From an uncultured Porphyromonadaceae bacterium (GTDB lineage: Bacteria; Bacteroidota; Bacteroidia; Bacteroidales; Muribaculaceae): 64,000 bases of DNA. Positions 4,985 to 13,008 of the stretch are shown piece by piece; within the stretch, counting starts at the first letter, position 1, and each line of letters opens with the position of its first letter. The notes under the pieces were generated by a model. That model did no database searches. It saw only the letters and a program-made list of their open reading frames with translations, and was not told the DNA's origin. The stretch spans positions 1 through 64,000 of the forward strand of contig CAMCDS010000007.1 of assembly GCA_945873625.1 (NCBI GenBank), given 5' to 3'. The position numbers and the translations under genes were made by a program.

Positions 4985-6991
4985 TCAGGCGTCGGCTATC
5001 ATGGCGAGGAACTCGTCTTCGCTCAGGATGTCGATGCCGAGCAAACGGCATTTTTCGAGCTTGGAGGGGCCCATGTTCTCTCCGGCGAGCACGAAACTCG
5101 TCTTCTTCGATATGCTTCCCGAATTTTTCCCTCCGTTGTTTTCTATCAGCTCCTTGTATTCGTCGCGCGAATGTCGGGCGAACGTGCCCGAAATCACTAT
5201 CGTCTTCCCTTCGAGGGCATTCCCCTTCGGAGCCATCTTGTCGGCCGACAGCTCCATTCTCACGCCGGCGGCCGCGAGGCGGTCGATATTGTCGACGGCT
5301 ATGGGGTCGCGCAGATAATCGCAGATACACCGGGCGATGACCGGACCTATGTCGGGCACGGCCGTCAGCTCGGCCTCGCTCATCGCGCGCAGACGCTCCA
5401 TGCTTTTGACGGCCATTGCCAGACGCTTGGCCGTGGTCTCGCCCACATTCGGAATCGAAAGGGCATATACCACGCGCTCGAAAGGCACCTGCTTCGAGGC
5501 CTCGATGCCGTCGAGGATACGCCTTGCGGTCTTCTCCCCCACACGCTCGAGCTTCGACAGTTTCTCTTCAGTGAGGTCGTAGAGGTCGGCTATATGCCTC
5601 ACGAGTCCGCAGGCATAGAGCAGCTCGGCCGTCTCCTCCCCTATCCCGTCGATGTCCATCATGCGGCGGGCGCAGAAATGCTCGATCTTGCCGGTGATCT
5701 GCGGACGGCATCCGTTGGCGTTGGGACAGCGCCAGGCGGCCTCCCCCTCCACGCGCACGAGCGGAGTTCCGCACTCCGGACAGCGGCTCACAAACTCCAC
5801 TCCGGCCGCGCCGGCCTTGCGTTTGGTAAGCTCCACTCCCACTATCTTGGGGATTATCTCTCCCCCTTTCTCCACATAGAGCCAGTCGTCTTCATGAATG
5901 TCAAGCTCGCGTATGATGTCGTCGTTGTGGAGCGAGGCGCGCTTCACAACAGTACCCGACAGGAGCACCGGCTCAAGGTTGGCCACAGGGGTTACGATAC
6001 CCATGCGCCCGGTCTCGAACGAGACGAACCGCAGGGGCGTGCAGGCCCTTTCGGGATTGAACTTATAGGCGATGGCCCAGCGGGGCGACTTGGCCGTATA
6101 GCCGAGATTAAGCTGCTGACGGAGCGAGTCGACCTTGAACACCAGTCCGTCGGTGGCCACAGGGAGCTTCCTGCGCTCCTCGTCCCAGAAACGGATGTAG
6201 CGCTCCACATCCTCGAGAGAGTGAAGCCTCTGCATGGCCGACGACACCTTGAAGCCCCATTCACGCACACATTCCATACACTCGAAATGGCTGTCGGCCG
6301 GCATCTCGTCCGAGAGCAGATAATAGAACCGGGCGTCGAGATGGCGCCGGGCCACTTCGCGCGGATCCTGCATCTTCAGCGTGCCCGACGCGGCATTGCG
6401 CGGATTGGCGAAGAGGGGTTCTTCGTTGTAGGCGCGTTCGGCGTTGAGCTTTTCGAATACGTCCCAGGGCATGAGAATCTCGCCGCGTATCTCGAACTCA
6501 CGCGGCCATGGGCCGGGGGCAAGCTCAAGCGGAATGCTTCTGATGGTCTTCACGTTGGCGGTTACGTCGTCGCCCTGCGTGCCGTCGCCTCGGGTTACGG
6601 CCCTCAGCAGCCGGCCGTCGCGGTAGGTGAGCGAAATCGACGTGCCGTCAAACTTCATCTCCCCCACCACGTCGAAACTCTCGGAGCCGAGTGATTTCCT
6701 GACGCGCGCGAACCATTCGTCGACCTCCTCGGCGGAATAGGAGTTGGAGAGCGACATCATCGGCCGTGCATGCACCACGTGCTCAAACCCCTTGGTGAGG
6801 TCAGAGCCCACGCGCTGCGTAGGCGAAAGCGGGTCGAAGGCTTCGGGATTTGCGGCCTCGAGGGCTTCGAGCTCCTTCATCATCATGTCGAAATCGCGGT
6901 CGGAGATTTCCGGCGCGTTGAGCACGTAGTAATTGTGGTTGTGGCGGTTGAGCTCGGCGCGGAGCTCCTTTATGCGTGAGATGGAATCCAT
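4985..6991 (-). CDS. ligA: NAD-dependent DNA ligase
   Basis: A 668-residue ligase that seals nicks in replication and repair using NAD. Domains in order: Ia, adenylation domain with the nucleotide-accepting Lys113 in the motif KFDG (113-116; usually KIDG or KVDG) and RGDGTQGDDVT, OB fold, a four-cysteine zinc finger (CPECG ... CPN..GC), helix-hairpin-helix repeats (GIGEETAELLYACG, VGEKTARRIL, IGPVIARCI), and a C-terminal BRCT domain (LEGKTIVISGTF). The ATG at 6991 begins the canonical N-terminus (SRIKELRAELNRHNHNYY); the longer open frame upstream is truA read out of frame. It overlaps truA by 22 bp, so the two are co-transcribed. Confidence 0.97.
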   Translation of the reverse strand: MDSISRIKELRAELNRHNHNYYVLNAPEISDRDFDMMMKELEALEAANPEAFDPLSPTQRVGSDLTKGFEHVVHARPMMSLSNSYSAEEVDEWFARVRKSLGSESFDVVGEMKFDGTSISLTYRDGRLLRAVTRGDGTQGDDVTANVKTIRSIPLELAPGPWPREFEIRGEILMPWDVFEKLNAERAYNEEPLFANPRNAASGTLKMQDPREVARRHLDARFYYLLSDEMPADSHFECMECVREWGFKVSSAMQRLHSLEDVERYIRFWDEERRKLPVATDGLVFKVDSLRQQLNLGYTAKSPRWAIAYKFNPERACTPLRFVSFETGRMGIVTPVANLEPVLLSGTVVKRASLHNDDIIRELDIHEDDWLYVEKGGEIIPKIVGVELTKRKAGAAGVEFVSRCPECGTPLVRVEGEAAWRCPNANGCRPQITGKIEHFCARRMMDIDGIGEETAELLYACGLVRHIADLYDLTEEKLSKLERVGEKTARRILDGIEASKQVPFERVVYALSIPNVGETTAKRLAMAVKSMERLRAMSEAELTAVPDIGPVIARCICDYLRDPIAVDNIDRLAAAGVRMELSADKMAPKGNALEGKTIVISGTFARHSRDEYKELIENNGGKNSGSISKKTSFVLAGENMGPSKLEKCRLLGIDILSEDEFLAMIADA

Positions 6992-7785
6992 GATTTTACG
7001 ATTGATTGGGGAATGTAGGGGTAGCTCACATTCCATAAGGTCAACGCCTGGGGAGGCATGGAGGTTCCGGCCAGACAGCGGTCGCGTCCGTCGGCTATGG
7101 CGCGGAACCCGGCCGGAGTGAGCTTGCCGCGCCCCACCTCCACGAGCGTGCCGACAATGGCGCGCACCATATTGCGCAGAAACCTGTCGGCCGAAATGGT
7201 GAACACCAGCAGCGGCTCTCCGGTTACGACGCTCACGCACTCCTCCCAGCGGGCGAGACGCACGTCGCAGATGTCGGTCCTGGCATCGGAATGGAGCTTG
7301 GCGAAAGAGGTGAATTCCTCCATGTCGAGCAGCGAGGCGGCTGCCTCGTTCATGGCCTCGACATCGAGCGGCGAAGTGGCCTGCCACGAAAGCGGATGCA
7401 GGAAGGGGGTCTTGGCCTTCGACACGAAATAGCGGTAGGTGCGTTCCGTGGCGTCGAAACGCGCATGGGCGTCGTCGGCTACGGGTATGATGTCGTGGAT
7501 GGCGATATTTCTGCCGCACAGACGGTTCAGCCCGGTGAGCAGCCTGCGCTTCCCCTCCCCCTCGGTTCTCGACGGGTCGACGCCCTCGGGGAGGTCGAAG
7601 TGGGCATACATGCAGCGGGCGTTGACGCCCGTGTCGGTGCGTCCGGCACCGACCACAGGCACCTCGGCGCGGAGCACGGTGGCCAGCGCCTCTTCAAGCG
7701 TCTGCTGCACGCTCACGGCGTTGGGCTGGCGCTGCCAGCCGTGGAAGGGAGCGCCGTTGTAGGCGAGATGAATGAAAAAACGCAT
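6970..7785 (-). CDS. truA: tRNA pseudouridine(38-40) synthase
   Basis: A 271-residue enzyme that isomerises uridines in the tRNA anticodon arm. The catalytic aspartate is in GAGRTDTGVNA, and FHGWQRQPNAVSVQ and SADRFLRNMVRAIVGTL are typical family motifs. Its ATG shares one base with the stop of speA (TGATG), indicating translational coupling, and its end overlaps the start of ligA. Confidence 0.97.
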   Translation of the reverse strand: MRFFIHLAYNGAPFHGWQRQPNAVSVQQTLEEALATVLRAEVPVVGAGRTDTGVNARCMYAHFDLPEGVDPSRTEGEGKRRLLTGLNRLCGRNIAIHDIIPVADDAHARFDATERTYRYFVSKAKTPFLHPLSWQATSPLDVEAMNEAAASLLDMEEFTSFAKLHSDARTDICDVRLARWEECVSVVTGEPLLVFTISADRFLRNMVRAIVGTLVEVGRGKLTPAGFRAIADGRDRCLAGTSMPPQALTLWNVSYPYIPQSIVKSWIPSHA

Positions 7786-9683
7786 CAGTCGCGCTCAAGA
7801 TAGGTGATTCCGTAGAGTCCCGAGCGGTAGTTGTTGAGAAACTGACGTCCCTCCTCGGGGGTGATGGCCCCCCGCTTCATCGAGGCCGACACCCATGCCT
7901 CAAGGTTGCGCACGAGTTTCTTGGGGCTGTATTCCACGTATTCGAGCACGTCGGCCACCGGCTCGCCGTCTACTATCTGCTCGATTTCATATCCGTTTTT
8001 AGTGAGCGAGATATGCACGGCGGCAGTGTCGCCGAAGAGGTTGTGGAGGTCGCCGAGTATCTCCTGATACGCACCTACGAGGAATACGCCGATGTAGTAG
8101 TGCTCGCCGTTGCGCACGGTGTGCACGGGGAGCGAATGCGACGTGCCCTGGGGCGACACGAAGTTGGAGATCTTGCCGTCGCTGTCGCAGGTTACGTCCT
8201 GGAGCGTGGCATTGCGCGTGGGCTTCTCGTCGAGGCGCGCGATGGGCATGATCGGAAACATCTGGTCGATGGCCCATGAGTCGGGGAGCGACTGGAAGAG
8301 GGAGAAGTTGCAGAAATACTTTTCGGGAAGCATGCGGGCCACCTTGCGGAGCTCTTCGGGCGGATGCTTCATGGAGCGGGTCATGTCGTTGACGTCGCGC
8401 GCCACGCTCCAGAAGAGCTTTTCGATTCGCGCCCTCGTCCTGAGGTCGAGCAGTCCGAGCGAGAAAAGCTCGAGGGCCTCCTCGCGTATCTGCAGGGCAT
8501 CGTGCCAGTCCTCAAACACACGCGAGGGATTGATCTTGTCCCAGATGCTGTAAAGCTCGCGTGCGAGTTCATGGGCGTCGTCGCCTATCTCCTCGTTGTC
8601 GTTCCACTGCGGGAGCTGCGTGGTCTCGAGCACGTCGATGATAAGCACCGAGTGGTGGGCCGTCAGCGAGCGTCCGCTCTCGGTGATGATGTTGGGCTGG
8701 CGCAAGTCATTCTTCTCGCATACATCCACGAGAGCCGACACCGAGTCGTTGACGTACTCTTGAATAGAATAGTTCATCGAGTTCTCGCCCATGGCCGAGC
8801 GTGTGCCGTCGTAGTCCACGCCGAGGCCGCCGCCTATGTCGACAAAGTCGATGCTGAAGCCCATCTTCGAGAGCTGCACGAAAAACTGCATCGCCTCGCG
8901 CAGGGCGTTCTTGATGCGGCGTATCTTGGTAATCTGGCTGCCGATATGGAAATGGATGAAGCGCAGGCAGTCGGTCATCTTGTTGCGCTCCAGATAGTCG
9001 AGGGCGTCGAGGAGCTCAGAAGAGTTGAGTCCGAACTTGCTGACGTCGCCGCCCGACTCCTCCCATTTGCCGCTGCCCGACGACGTGAGCTTGATTCTGA
9101 CGCCGATGTTGGGCCGCAGGTTGAGCCGCTTGCTCACCTTGGCGATTAGCTTGAGCTCGTTGAGCTTCTCCACCACGATGAAGATGCGGCGTCCCATCTT
9201 CTGGGCGAGGAGGGCGAGCTCCACATAGTCCTCGTCCTTGTATCCGTTGCAGACGATGATGGAGTTCTCGTGGGTGTTGACGGCAAGCACGGCGTGGAGT
9301 TCCGGCTTCGAGCCGGCCTCGAGGCCGATGTTGTACTTGTTGCCGTGGCTCACGATTTCCTCCACCACCTGGCGCATCTGGTTGACCTTGATGGGATAGA
9401 CCACGAAGTTCTGGCCCTGGTAGGAATATTCTTCGGCGGCGCGGGCGAAGCATCCCGAAATCTTGCGTATGCGGTCGTCGAGTATGTCGGGGAAACGAAG
9501 CAGAAGAGGCGCCGAGACGTCGCGCAGTTTAAGCTCGGCCATCACTTCGCTGATGTCGATGGGTGTGCATCCCTCGCGGGGCGTAACCTGCACGTGGCCT
9601 GCGTCGTTGATTGAAAAATACTTCAATCCCCAGCCGGGAACATTATAGAGTTCCGACGAGTCTTCAATTCTCCATTTTCTCAT
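7785..9683 (-). CDS. speA: Biosynthetic arginine decarboxylase (PLP-dependent, fold III)
   Basis: A 632-residue enzyme that converts arginine to agmatine, the first step of the agmatine route to putrescine and spermidine. The PLP lysine is in VVYPIKVNQ, followed by GLEAGSKPEL; the barrel continues with HFHIGSQ, VDIGGGLGVDYDG and ITESGRSLTAHHS. The length fits the long SpeA family rather than small decarboxylases. The start at 9683 (MRKWRIEDSSELYNVPGWG) is the family's usual N-terminus. It lies downstream of argR, an ArgC-like gene and ssb on the same strand, and is translationally coupled to truA. Confidence 0.96.
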   Translation of the reverse strand: MRKWRIEDSSELYNVPGWGLKYFSINDAGHVQVTPREGCTPIDISEVMAELKLRDVSAPLLLRFPDILDDRIRKISGCFARAAEEYSYQGQNFVVYPIKVNQMRQVVEEIVSHGNKYNIGLEAGSKPELHAVLAVNTHENSIIVCNGYKDEDYVELALLAQKMGRRIFIVVEKLNELKLIAKVSKRLNLRPNIGVRIKLTSSGSGKWEESGGDVSKFGLNSSELLDALDYLERNKMTDCLRFIHFHIGSQITKIRRIKNALREAMQFFVQLSKMGFSIDFVDIGGGLGVDYDGTRSAMGENSMNYSIQEYVNDSVSALVDVCEKNDLRQPNIITESGRSLTAHHSVLIIDVLETTQLPQWNDNEEIGDDAHELARELYSIWDKINPSRVFEDWHDALQIREEALELFSLGLLDLRTRARIEKLFWSVARDVNDMTRSMKHPPEELRKVARMLPEKYFCNFSLFQSLPDSWAIDQMFPIMPIARLDEKPTRNATLQDVTCDSDGKISNFVSPQGTSHSLPVHTVRNGEHYYIGVFLVGAYQEILGDLHNLFGDTAAVHISLTKNGYEIEQIVDGEPVADVLEYVEYSPKKLVRNLEAWVSASMKRGAITPEEGRQFLNNYRSGLYGITYLERD

Positions 9684-9753
9684 TTCTTTCGTGTGAAGTG
9701 TTTTGATTGTGTGGGTGATGATGTGTAATGGTCGGCGGACGCTGCGCGGAGGG

Positions 9754-10089
9754 TCATCTTGCGGTCTCCTGCGCGCGTCCCACTATCTCCATGAAGTCGG
9801 CGATTATCTCGGTGCGCTTTCTGGCTATCTTGAACCGGTCGGTGTATTCGCGCGTGCGGAGCTTCCCTTCTACGTAAAGTCTTGTGCCTTTGCGGATGTA
9901 GCGCTCGGCGAGACGCGCGTTCTGCCCGGTAACCACGATATAGTGCCACGTCGTAACCTCAGTCTGCGAGGCTCCGTAGCGGTCGTTGGTCGCCAGCGTG
10001 AAGTAGGCCACGGCCATGTCTTTCTCCGGGAAACGGATTTCAGGGTCGCTGCCTACGTATCCGAGCAGTATTACTTTGTTTACCGACAT
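9754..10089 (-). CDS. ssb: Single-stranded DNA-binding protein, short form without acidic tail
   Basis: A 111-residue OB-fold protein (MSVNKVILLGYVGSDPEIRF ... TTWHYIVVTGQNARLAERYI ... RLYVEGKLRTREYTD). The usual glycine-rich linker and acidic C-terminal tip (DDIPF type), which recruits replication and repair partners, are absent; the protein ends in EIVGRAQETAR. It may be a secondary SSB. It starts 3 bp after the stop of the ArgC-like gene and is followed after 70 bp by speA. Confidence 0.92.
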   Translation of the reverse strand: MSVNKVILLGYVGSDPEIRFPEKDMAVAYFTLATNDRYGASQTEVTTWHYIVVTGQNARLAERYIRKGTRLYVEGKLRTREYTDRFKIARKRTEIIADFMEIVGRAQETAR

Positions 10090-10092
10090 TGG

Positions 10093-10992
10093 TCAGAAGT
10101 TTGAGGCCTTGAAGGCGAGTCCGGTCTTTTCATGGAGTGCGAAGAGGAGGTTCATTGCGTGGACGGCATCTCCGGCTCCGCCCCGCAGGCATCCGTCGGC
10201 TATGGCGTCGATCTCGATACTTCCGGGATCGGGCTTCGAGATGTGGAGCAGACACTTCTCGGTGCCTTCCACCTCGCGGATATGGAGCGGGAGCTGCGAG
10301 AGGAAGGTGAAGCGGTGGTCGTCGTAGATTGCCTCGTAGAGAGCCGCTATGTCGGCCGGCTGCATGGCGGAGGCTATGCGGGCGCGCAGCCTCAGTCCGC
10401 GTCCCGGCTCGGGCTCGCCGGCCGTTACCTCCACTCCTCCGGTGAAGCTCTGCTGCACCGACGAGAGTATTCCGGCCACTTCCTCGCCGCATCCCGTGAG
10501 GTCGGCCGAAGCGGGCGCCGACACGCTGATGGCGAGGGGAGCGCTGAGCATGAGGTTGGCTGCGAGGGGATACAGTGCCACGAGGGCCACCACGGCTGCG
10601 GCCGAAGGGACATAGGCGCGGGTGGCGCCCCGCACTAAGCTCTTGCGGAAGAGCTCCGAGACGCCGCAGACGTATCCCTCTCGCCCGGCTGCGCGCCCGG
10701 TCATGTCGACTGCTCGCGGAGCCTTCTCCCCGGCGCTGTCGATGGCGGCGAGGATTGAGTCGGCTTCGGCGCAGTCGTCGATGAAGACCACGTCGAGGCC
10801 TCCGATGTCGAGACGGTCAGAGAATTTCATATCGGTCTCTCCGATCAGCCCGTGGTGCACGCTGTCGACGCTCTCTCCGGTGCGCTCAGGTGCATAGAGG
10901 GTGCGTATCTCCACTTCGGGGTGGTTCACCAGTATTCTTATCAGCTCGCCGGACCGCTGACTCGCGGCGCCGGCAATGCCAGCTTTTATCAT
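10093..10992 (-). CDS. ArgC-like protein lacking catalytic Cys and His (probable pseudoenzyme)
   Basis: A 299-residue homologue of N-acetyl-gamma-glutamyl-phosphate reductase over its full length: MIKAGIAGAASQRSGELIR at the N-terminus, HHGLIGET, YPLAANLML, and GGAGDAVHAMNLLFALHE at the C-terminus all align with ArgC. The catalytic motif NPGC(F/Y)PT is replaced by YVPSAAA (Ala131 where Cys is expected), the HxHxPEI segment with the catalytic histidine is replaced by ADLTGCGEEVAG, and the nucleotide-binding GGxGYTG is GAASQRSG. The frame is clean and the 3' half is well conserved, so it appears to be maintained rather than decaying. It sits between argR and ssb/speA. A structural or regulatory role in arginine metabolism is inference. 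Confidence 0.82.
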   Translation of the reverse strand: MIKAGIAGAASQRSGELIRILVNHPEVEIRTLYAPERTGESVDSVHHGLIGETDMKFSDRLDIGGLDVVFIDDCAEADSILAAIDSAGEKAPRAVDMTGRAAGREGYVCGVSELFRKSLVRGATRAYVPSAAAVVALVALYPLAANLMLSAPLAISVSAPASADLTGCGEEVAGILSSVQQSFTGGVEVTAGEPEPGRGLRLRARIASAMQPADIAALYEAIYDDHRFTFLSQLPLHIREVEGTEKCLLHISKPDPGSIEIDAIADGCLRGGAGDAVHAMNLLFALHEKTGLAFKASNF

Positions 10993-11178
10993 GGTTGTTG
11001 TTTTCGTTGACTGTTACAAGCACACGAAGAGCGCCGTCAAGGCGACTTCAACATGCAAGAGGAGGCTTCAAAGAGCGAAACACAGTTTCCATTCTTTCGA
11101 GACCTCCTTTATATATAACACGTATCTAAGTAAGACTTATTATCCGACCCGTGGTTTAAAAGCAACTGCGAAGTCGTG

Positions 11179-11676
11179 TCAGTAGACCGGTATTTTCCGG
11201 TCGAGGGGCACGAGGCTCGCGAACACTTTGCGTATCTCGTCGTGGGTCATGCCTTCGCGCATCACGCAGAAGATAGTGTCGGATCCGGGGATAGTGCCGA
11301 GTATCTCTGAGCGATTGCTGATGTCCATGTCGTAGGCCAGGCCGGCGGCATATCCGTTGCGGGTCTTGATGACGACCATGTTGCCCGAGATCTGGAGCGA
11401 GATAAACCCGCCCTGACAGTTGGTGTTGAGGTCGACGTCGCCCGATTTCAGAAGGTTGTCTTTCAGCAGATTGCTATCGGGAAGGATATACATGAACTTC
11501 CCTCTTCCCGACGACATTTTGGTGATTTTGAGCAGCTTCAGGTCGCGCGACAGCGTGGCCTGAGTTACGTGGAATCCCCTCTCGGCAATAAGCTTGAGGA
11601 GCTCTACCTGACTGGGAATGCATTTTGTCCTGATAAGGTCTACTATCAGCTCTACCCTCTGTTTTCTATTTTTCAT
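11179..11676 (-). CDS. argR: Arginine repressor
   Basis: A 165-residue ArgR. The N-terminal winged helix contains the recognition region HVTQATLSRDLKLL; the C-terminal hexamerisation and arginine-binding domain includes TRNGYAAGLAYDMD and GTIPGSDTIFCVM, with the aspartate motif GSDT needed for arginine binding. The family represses arginine biosynthesis and activates catabolism when arginine is present. It is 186 bp upstream of the ArgC-like gene on the same strand. Confidence 0.96.
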   Translation of the reverse strand: MKNRKQRVELIVDLIRTKCIPSQVELLKLIAERGFHVTQATLSRDLKLLKITKMSSGRGKFMYILPDSNLLKDNLLKSGDVDLNTNCQGGFISLQISGNMVVIKTRNGYAAGLAYDMDISNRSEILGTIPGSDTIFCVMREGMTHDEIRKVFASLVPLDRKIPVY

Positions 11677-11902
11677 GACTTCTGTTTTATTGCACAGCAG
11701 CAGCCGGAACCTTGCCTCCGACGTGTCGCCGCCCTTGGCGGACCGACATCAGCGAGACAAAAGAATACAACAAGCAATTTGGCTTAAGCCGTAATTCATA
11801 AATCAGTTATGTAAGATATAGAGTAAAAATACTGTGGGGAGAAGCATCGGCGTGCTGTCGACGCATGATTGTTGTGCCTTGCCCAACCTTAATTTTACGG
11901 TG

Positions 11903-11910
11903 CAAAGGTA
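11903..11910 (-). promoter_or_regulatory. Candidate -7 promoter element for argR
   Basis: On the minus strand this reads TACCTTTG followed by CA, a Bacteroidota -7 box in a very AT-rich stretch (11890-11960). The argR ATG is 226 bp downstream, so a long leader would result. The rest of the 292-bp gap (11677-11968) shows no gene. Confidence 0.5.
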
Positions 11911-11968
11911 CTTAAATATTTTTATTTGTAAATAATTTTTCGGCAATAAATTTATCGGCGGGAGCGCA

Positions 11969-12931
11969 TCACTGCTTTTTCCAAATCCAGCAGTCGCCGT
12001 ATTCGGCCTTGAATGATGTGCTGTTCATCTTTCCGATAAGCGATTCCTTGTCGGCGGAGCTACCTGCCGCCACCCTCGACATGCGGCCCGAGGTTACTAT
12101 GCTCAGCGAGCTGTCGCCTTTCTGGTCTACAAACGTCTGCGCGTCGGCCAGGCTGTGGAACGTGGCCACAATCAGATAGTAGATGCCTTCGGGCGCGGGC
12201 TCTTCCGCTTCGGCTTCGCGAGCGGCAGGTGCCGTCTCGGCCGGAAGGATGGTCTCGCGCAGGGCGGCCGACTCCTCGGCAGTCTTCTTCTCGACGGCCG
12301 TTACGGGAACCACCGAGGCATACTGGCGTTCGTTCTGACTGTGAGACGCCCCGATGAAGAGGGATAGCCCTACAGCCACTGCCAGAGCGAAGCAGGCGGC
12401 GGTGCGGGCGAAAATCTTGTTGACGGGGATGTAATAGTTTCTGTCGGTGCGGAAACGTCGGCCTGCGGGAGCCTCCGGCACCTGCACGGCTGCCGGTGCC
12501 TCTGCCGGCTCCTCTTTCGGGAGCACGGGGAGACGGAGCGTCGAGAAGCCGAGGCTTGCCGACGTGGCTTCAGGAGTGCGCAGCGGCGTGAACGTGAGCT
12601 TTCCTTCGGCGCCGGAACGTAGCGTGCCCACTCGTCCGACGGTAACCTCTCCCCCTTCGGCTATCGCGCTGCGGAGCGCCTCGATCTCTTCCGACACACG
12701 GATGCGGGCCTCCTCGTAGGTGAGCGACAGCCGGCGTGCGAACGAGTTGGCCAGAAGGCCGTCGTCGTGCCCTATCGCGGGGTTGAAGCATATCTCGGTG
12801 CAGGCCGCCGCCATCTCGTCATCCGCCAGGCGCGCATTGCGGCGCGTAGCCAGAAACGCTCCGAAACCCGGAAGGGTAACGCAGTCGTGTCTGCCAAGCA
12901 GATACTCTATGTGAAGGATAAGTTCCTGCAT
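11969..12931 (-). CDS. HU-like domain, transmembrane and SPOR domain protein
   Basis: A 320-residue protein. The N-terminal region (about 1-95: HIEYLLGRHDCVTLPGFGAF, ANSFARRLSLTYEEA, VTVGRVGTLRSG) resembles the bacterial CCDC81/HU-type domain. A proline- and glutamate-rich linker follows, then one transmembrane helix (ARTAACFALAVAVGLSLFIG), then an Ala/Glu-rich linker and a C-terminal SPOR-type domain (IYYLIVATFHSLADAQTF ... GDCWIWKK) that in this family binds denuded peptidoglycan at division sites. This places the HU-like part in the cytoplasm and SPOR in the periplasm. The ATG at 12931 begins the HU-like fold; a longer frame to 13003 overlaps the promoter. Confidence 0.85.
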   Translation of the reverse strand: MQELILHIEYLLGRHDCVTLPGFGAFLATRRNARLADDEMAAACTEICFNPAIGHDDGLLANSFARRLSLTYEEARIRVSEEIEALRSAIAEGGEVTVGRVGTLRSGAEGKLTFTPLRTPEATSASLGFSTLRLPVLPKEEPAEAPAAVQVPEAPAGRRFRTDRNYYIPVNKIFARTAACFALAVAVGLSLFIGASHSQNERQYASVVPVTAVEKKTAEESAALRETILPAETAPAAREAEAEEPAPEGIYYLIVATFHSLADAQTFVDQKGDSSLSIVTSGRMSRVAAGSSADKESLIGKMNSTSFKAEYGDCWIWKKQ

Positions 12932-13000
12932 TGATAATGAGATGGTTAAGTTCGTTTTAACTTTTGCTGCCGTCCACACCGGGGCGTTGGGAAGCGAGTG

Positions 13001-13008
13001 CAAAGGTA
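13001..13008 (-). promoter_or_regulatory. -7 promoter element of HU-SPOR gene
   Basis: The minus strand reads TACCTTTG followed by CA, 70 nt ahead of the ATG at 12931. It is the same sequence as the candidate argR box. Confidence 0.6.

Follow-up and report, generated by a model that had tools for sequence, protein, structure and literature searches.

Pseudoenzymes usually arise after gene duplication. The proteins closest to the one described here are ArgC itself (TIGR01850; PDB 2cvo, 1xyg, and 8afu), LysY, an ArgC-like reductase that acts in lysine synthesis (PDB 5eio and 5ein), and the ArgB-ArgC-type protein Arg5,6 of yeast, which reportedly binds DNA as a moonlighting activity. A literature search, judged by titles, found no earlier description of an ArgC pseudoenzyme. 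We report on an ArgC-derived gene, which we call pArgC, in a 64,000-nucleotide stretch of DNA from an uncultured bacterium of the family Muribaculaceae (the window). Here, within one abundant family of gut bacteria, a single ancestral gene appears to have itself lost catalysis in several lineages, each time at about the time of pathway loss.

pArgC and its genome

The gene and the sites within it that differ from intact ArgC are as follows.

10093..10992, minus strand: pArgC, putative ArgC-derived pseudoenzyme of 299 aa (ORF, family scans, and fold)
10954..10971, minus strand: codons 8 to 13, the former NADP loop, with the third Gly of GxxGxxG lost (alignment)
10627..10650, minus strand: FRKSLVRG, residues 115 to 122, the window form of NRKxxVRG (sequence motif comparison)
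10600..10602, minus strand: codon 131, Ala where the catalytic Cys sat, YVPSAAA for xNPGCFA (alignment with intact ArgC)

The reading frame starts with ATG and is uninterrupted by stops. Its product matched the semialdehyde-dehydrogenase NAD-binding domain (Pfam PF01118, 36.2 bits against a cut-off of 26), while the match to the dimerization domain PF22698 remained below threshold (18.9 versus 27), and the NCBIfam model TIGR01850 for argC gave 73.5 bits, short of the equivalog cut-off of 233.6. The nearest solved structures were ArgC proteins. An AlphaFold2 model built with 58 aligned relatives had a mean pLDDT of 95.7 and a pTM of 0.93, and with Foldseek and VIA-align it was superimposed on the rice ArgC (2cvo) over 293/299 residues, with a Z score of 36.4 and an rmsd of 1.8. 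By this model, pArgC is predicted to have the ArgC fold and to be ArgC minus its active-site loop, not a fragment.

All 20 intact ArgC proteins in the alignment (20/20) had Cys at the column of Ala131 in pArgC. Neither active-site His of the HQH motif remained, and Ser had replaced the third nucleotide-loop Gly. An earlier note, made from the sequence of the window, had described ArgC homology in a clean frame with the Cys-to-Ala change, a lost histidine motif, and an altered nucleotide loop, with all of which the alignment agrees. It had also called the homology full-length, and this holds end to end, but not for the length itself, since the active-site loop (TGSTGAG...THFSWRNDN) has a deletion of approximately 20 residues and pArgC has 299 aa versus approximately 322 aa in intact ArgC.

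The same losses recurred in the orthologues, as the note had proposed to check. Among 36 rows comprising the genus and one further genome (G057), Cys appeared in its column once (L018), and neither the His residues nor the third Gly were kept in any row, whereas all of these positions were invariant in the 20 intact rows. A larger set contained a second copy with a stray Cys (L165), and both this copy and L018 were without the His residues or the loop. Judged by alignment, pArgC is a putative folded derivative of ArgC that lacks the catalytic machinery and in which enzyme activity has presumably been lost, the predicted NADP loop being altered as well. A homologous fold with its catalytic residues lost, yet kept by selection, would make it a pseudoenzyme.

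The genome that carries the window is 99.7% complete (2.33 Mb). No match to the ArgC dimerization-domain family was found in it, indicating that there is no second ArgC, so the search for a catalytic argC that the note had called for came back empty. Neither argG nor argB had a significant match in this genome, and the argH model had a sub-threshold match only (52 bits). Across the 26 genomes searched for argH, all four argG-positive ones exceeded the cut-off, and any match in the argG-negative ones was sub-threshold. pArgC thus lacks argB, argG, and argH as pathway partners in its genome, and we infer that the organism cannot make arginine.

The neighbors of pArgC in the window are as follows.

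11179..11676, minus strand: argR, arginine repressor, directly upstream of pArgC (PF01316/PF02863)
9754..10089, minus strand: ssb, 111-aa single-strand binding protein, directly downstream of pArgC (family scan)
7785..9683, minus strand: speA, biosynthetic arginine decarboxylase (family scan)
6970..7785, minus strand: truA (named from the ORF sequence and conserved block)
4985..7006, minus strand: ligA (named from the ORF sequence and conserved block)

This is the placement, after argR and before ssb-speA-truA-ligA, that the note had described. A promoter and terminator scan of 9600-12000 found no signal above shuffled sequences. Upstream of argR, the minus strand at 11969-13003 encodes a protein of 344 aa that contains two prokaryotic HU domains of the CCDC81-like type.

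Retention in the genus and the family

Full-length, stop-free homologues at 39 to 56% identity were found in 35/37 genomes of the same genus, and the two genomes without pArgC are 79% and 87% complete. The active site was intact in none of the 35 copies (0/35). Where it could be read, the gene order in the genus was argR-pArgC-ssb-speA-truA; of 19 stretches read at length, all 19 had ssb-speA-truA after pArgC, 16 had argR before it, and 16 showed ligA. The dN/dS ratio was 0.03 to 0.14 within the genus, similar to, or a little higher than, the ratio for argR from these stretches, and 0.01 to 0.14 in other Cys-less pairs, with dS being saturated in most pairs, including those with the window copy, and lying between 0.05 and 2 in only 5 listed genus pairs. 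pArgC is under purifying selection, and the genus-wide conservation together with the dN/dS values rules out the decay of a single copy. Hence, the note's proposal of a retained, non-catalytic ArgC, for which it had asked for an estimate of selection, stands with no signs of neutral decay.

A useless relic in slow decay, or a gene kept solely on account of a cis element (for example, coupling of the neighboring genes), might fit the transitional-looking argG-negative genomes that exist (with NPGS, NPGA, or NPGC[IV]) and the overlaps with neighboring genes that occur. However, we regard this as very improbable, as dN/dS is far below 1 across saturated synonymous change, the frames are complete in 35/35 same-genus copies, the gene is kept despite differing neighbors, and the fold is predicted at very high confidence.

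Across the family, a profile built from the genus copies found a homologue in 194/198 Muribaculaceae genomes, and the intact NPGC[FY] motif was present in 121/198 and argG in 123/198. All 121 motif-bearing genomes were argG-positive (121/121), and two argG genomes were without the motif. Among the 75/198 genomes that were argG-negative, 72 kept the ArgC homologue and none of these 72 had NPGC[FY]; the three without a homologue were all less than 90% complete. These counts come from genomes that are not independent and are mostly metagenome assembled. As a control, 291 genomes of the order outside the Muribaculaceae included 181 argG-negative ones, of which 12 kept a homologue, a figure that underestimates retention outside the family, because the genus-built profile detected only 74 of the 110 argG-positive genomes there. 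The order-wide and family-wide samples came from separate searches and were equated by matching genome labels. One genome (G034) with neither intact argC nor intact argB had an argG match (1.1e-75, positions 1 to 358 of 394), possibly a remnant.

The second possibility raised by the note, an ArgC partner, fared poorly against these counts. An intact second ArgC (ArgC-2) occurs together with argB in 13/37 same-genus genomes (argG in 14/37), and the dimerization domain is retained in the predicted fold, so pArgC could in principle be a subunit partner or inhibitor of intact ArgC. Yet no intact ArgC accompanies it in the window genome or in 22/35 of its same-genus holders, and the 72 argG-negative genomes of the family keep the homologue without the intact motif, which leaves this reading barely credible.

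Repeated loss of the cysteine and erosion of the ancestral locus

In trees built without the active-site columns, one Muribaculaceae clade (ArgC-1, SH-aLRT 100) contained all the Cys-less copies plus intact copies, with ArgC-2 lying outside it. The Cys state changed at least five times on the tree, and a single clade of Cys-less rows was rejected (delta lnL of 237), likewise after adding genus g31, the groups in this constraint test having been chosen by trait and some branches being long. Intact and dead copies were neighbors within g50 (L217 and L238) and g49 (L216 and L232). The Cys was therefore lost in several lineages, and one origin is rejected. The alignments excluded proteins shorter than 270 aa, and two rows were dropped (L205, a 20-aa fragment, and L239, in which no ORF was found).

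The Cys-less copies form a graded series, from NPGS or NPGA with a nearly intact remaining site (L213 and L228 to L231), through NPGN (L232), NPGG (L243), and NPGP (L225), to shorter loops and a motif that is gone, as in the window. In genus g31 (L189, L223, L224, L226, L227, and L237), the Cys was kept as NPGC[IV] and the second His of HQH was changed; four genomes of this type (G132, G198, G224, and G231) were argG-negative, and another (G094) had an intact motif and argG elsewhere. The g31 ArgC-1 may represent a transitional state or have an altered activity. The Cys-to-Ser copies L213 (252 bits) and L238 (239 bits) exceeded the NCBIfam ArgC cut-off of 233.6. Since some Cys-less copies pass this threshold, automatic annotation can assign an ArgC step to arginine auxotrophs.

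Several copies differed from these patterns. The dead copies of g47 (L236, L240, L244 to L246, L248, and L249) have 336 to 376 aa, with an insertion at the old active-site loop. In another family of the order, G057 carries a Cys-less ArgC (L036) between argR and proC that forms a long branch inside the Muribaculaceae clade, possibly by transfer or from a wider origin. The ArgC-2 copies (L051 to L063, L186, L191, L196, L204, and L219) are intact and lie in a separate argG-argC-argD cluster, in some genomes beside a dead ArgC-1; they may stem either from replacement by horizontal transfer or from old paralogy.

Intact ArgC-1 genes were found in the order argR-argG-argC-argD-proC-ssb (L187, L197, and L214), with gltX upstream of the cluster in L188 and L216. 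The loci of dead copies are remnants of this cluster (argR-pArgC-ssb, argR-pArgC-proC, or gltX-waaA-pArgC), although in some genera the gene is elsewhere. argC thus outlasted argG and argD, and in many cases also argR and proC, which vanished from around it. The note had named orthologues with an intact motif at this locus as evidence against its proposal, and such orthologues do occur, in genomes of other genera that still have the pathway; they date the loss and leave the retention standing.

We considered gltX, which lies beside pArgC in argR-less genera, as a functional clue and rejected it, because related genera also have gltX-waaA upstream of the cluster and its adjacency is inherited synteny (waaA was checked by family scan in L182 and L199 only). 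In the genera with a relocated gene (g33, g40, and g47), no hallmark neighbor emerged; these positions were occupied by unrelated genes, galactokinase and TPR genes among them. As the neighbors vary between genera, the context singles out no one function.

The same history bears on whether pArgC is an accessory of ArgR, either a co-repressor or a sensor of arginine intermediates, that regulates the local argR-ssb-speA unit. The directly upstream argR in 16/19 same-genus stretches and in several other genera, and the use of arginine as a substrate by speA, are consistent with such a role. However, the argR-pArgC adjacency is ancestral, being a remnant of the argR...argG-argC-argD-proC-ssb cluster, and is by itself weak evidence for a link. 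In addition, argR is not a constant companion: it was found in 128/198 Muribaculaceae genomes and in 40 of the 72 argG-negative holders, leaving 32/72 without a match, and the same-genus genomes G007, G221, and G242 (argG-positive) kept pArgC with no argR match. We consider this role unlikely, and the note's suggestion of a link with ArgR may apply to the window but is not general.

A proposed second function of ArgC and comparison with known proteins

Erosion chiefly affected the columns of the NADP loop, Cys motif, TGSTGAG loop, and HQH motif. Among the positions that stayed conserved were R19, H24, P25, H46, G51, E113, R116-K117, P129, and P142, as well as D225-H226, D266, G271, A276, H278, N281, E288, and G291-L292. 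The strict NRKxxVRG motif occurred in 93/130 Cys-less copies and 6/11 intact ArgC-1 copies, but in 0/18 ArgC-2 and 0/29 other Bacteroidales ArgC proteins. Because it is found in intact ArgC-1 too, the segment predates the Cys loss in the ArgC-1 clade, and, this being one clade, the motif may be a sign of ancestry in addition to, or instead of, function.

A neofunctionalized enzyme, in which the old pocket has taken on another chemistry or a new ligand, could account for the new residues conserved in the genus in place of the ancestral ones (E240, G243, R270, and A273) and for the invariant charged residues (R19, H24, H46, E113, R116, K117, R121, D225, H226, D266, H278, and E288). Nevertheless, the majority of those residues are already conserved in intact ArgC, and variable residues now stand where the NADP loop and catalytic residues were, with no shared new nucleophile. 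We find this possibility improbable, slightly more so than an accessory role for ArgR.

The explanation that we prefer, and to which we give about an even chance of being right, is that ArgC of the Muribaculaceae gained an important catalysis-independent function before the losses of arginine synthesis, and that lineages then independently shed the catalytic residues and kept the protein. The non-catalytic function is probably older than the loss of catalysis. According to this scenario, the ancestral enzyme would have carried a second, non-catalytic function before the pathway was lost, probably the binding of a protein or metabolite via surfaces that are still conserved; candidates are the segments NRKxxVRG, which precedes the former active site, and DDHxF, and the GxAxHxMNL helix at the C terminus. 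With the loss of arginine synthesis in a lineage, catalysis would no longer be selected for, and the second function alone would be kept. Given the fixed argR-pArgC-ssb-speA order in the genus, arginine and polyamine homeostasis is the first place to look for it. If true, nature would have repeatedly uncoupled the second role of an enzyme from its original one, and the intact and dead forms within single genera would constitute a natural experiment on the residues that serve the hidden function; cultured members of the group are among the matches (L115, from Muribaculaceae bacterium Isolate-037, and L124, from Isolate-036).

Compared with known systems, pArgC shares its fold, ancestry, and ancestral locus with ArgC, but has none of the Cys, the His pair, the active-site loop, and the NADP-loop Gly of that enzyme. 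The fold of LysY is also similar (Z score of about 34); unlike pArgC, LysY is an active enzyme, and its C148A form is, by the title of the structure, a laboratory mutant. Like pArgC, Arg5,6 belongs to the ArgC family and has been proposed to have a second role; it differs in being catalytically active. The closest relatives are the intact ArgC-1 proteins of the Muribaculaceae themselves, which have their clade and locus in common with pArgC, and in part the NRKxxVRG motif, but, unlike pArgC, possess NPGCFAT, HQH, and a complete operon.
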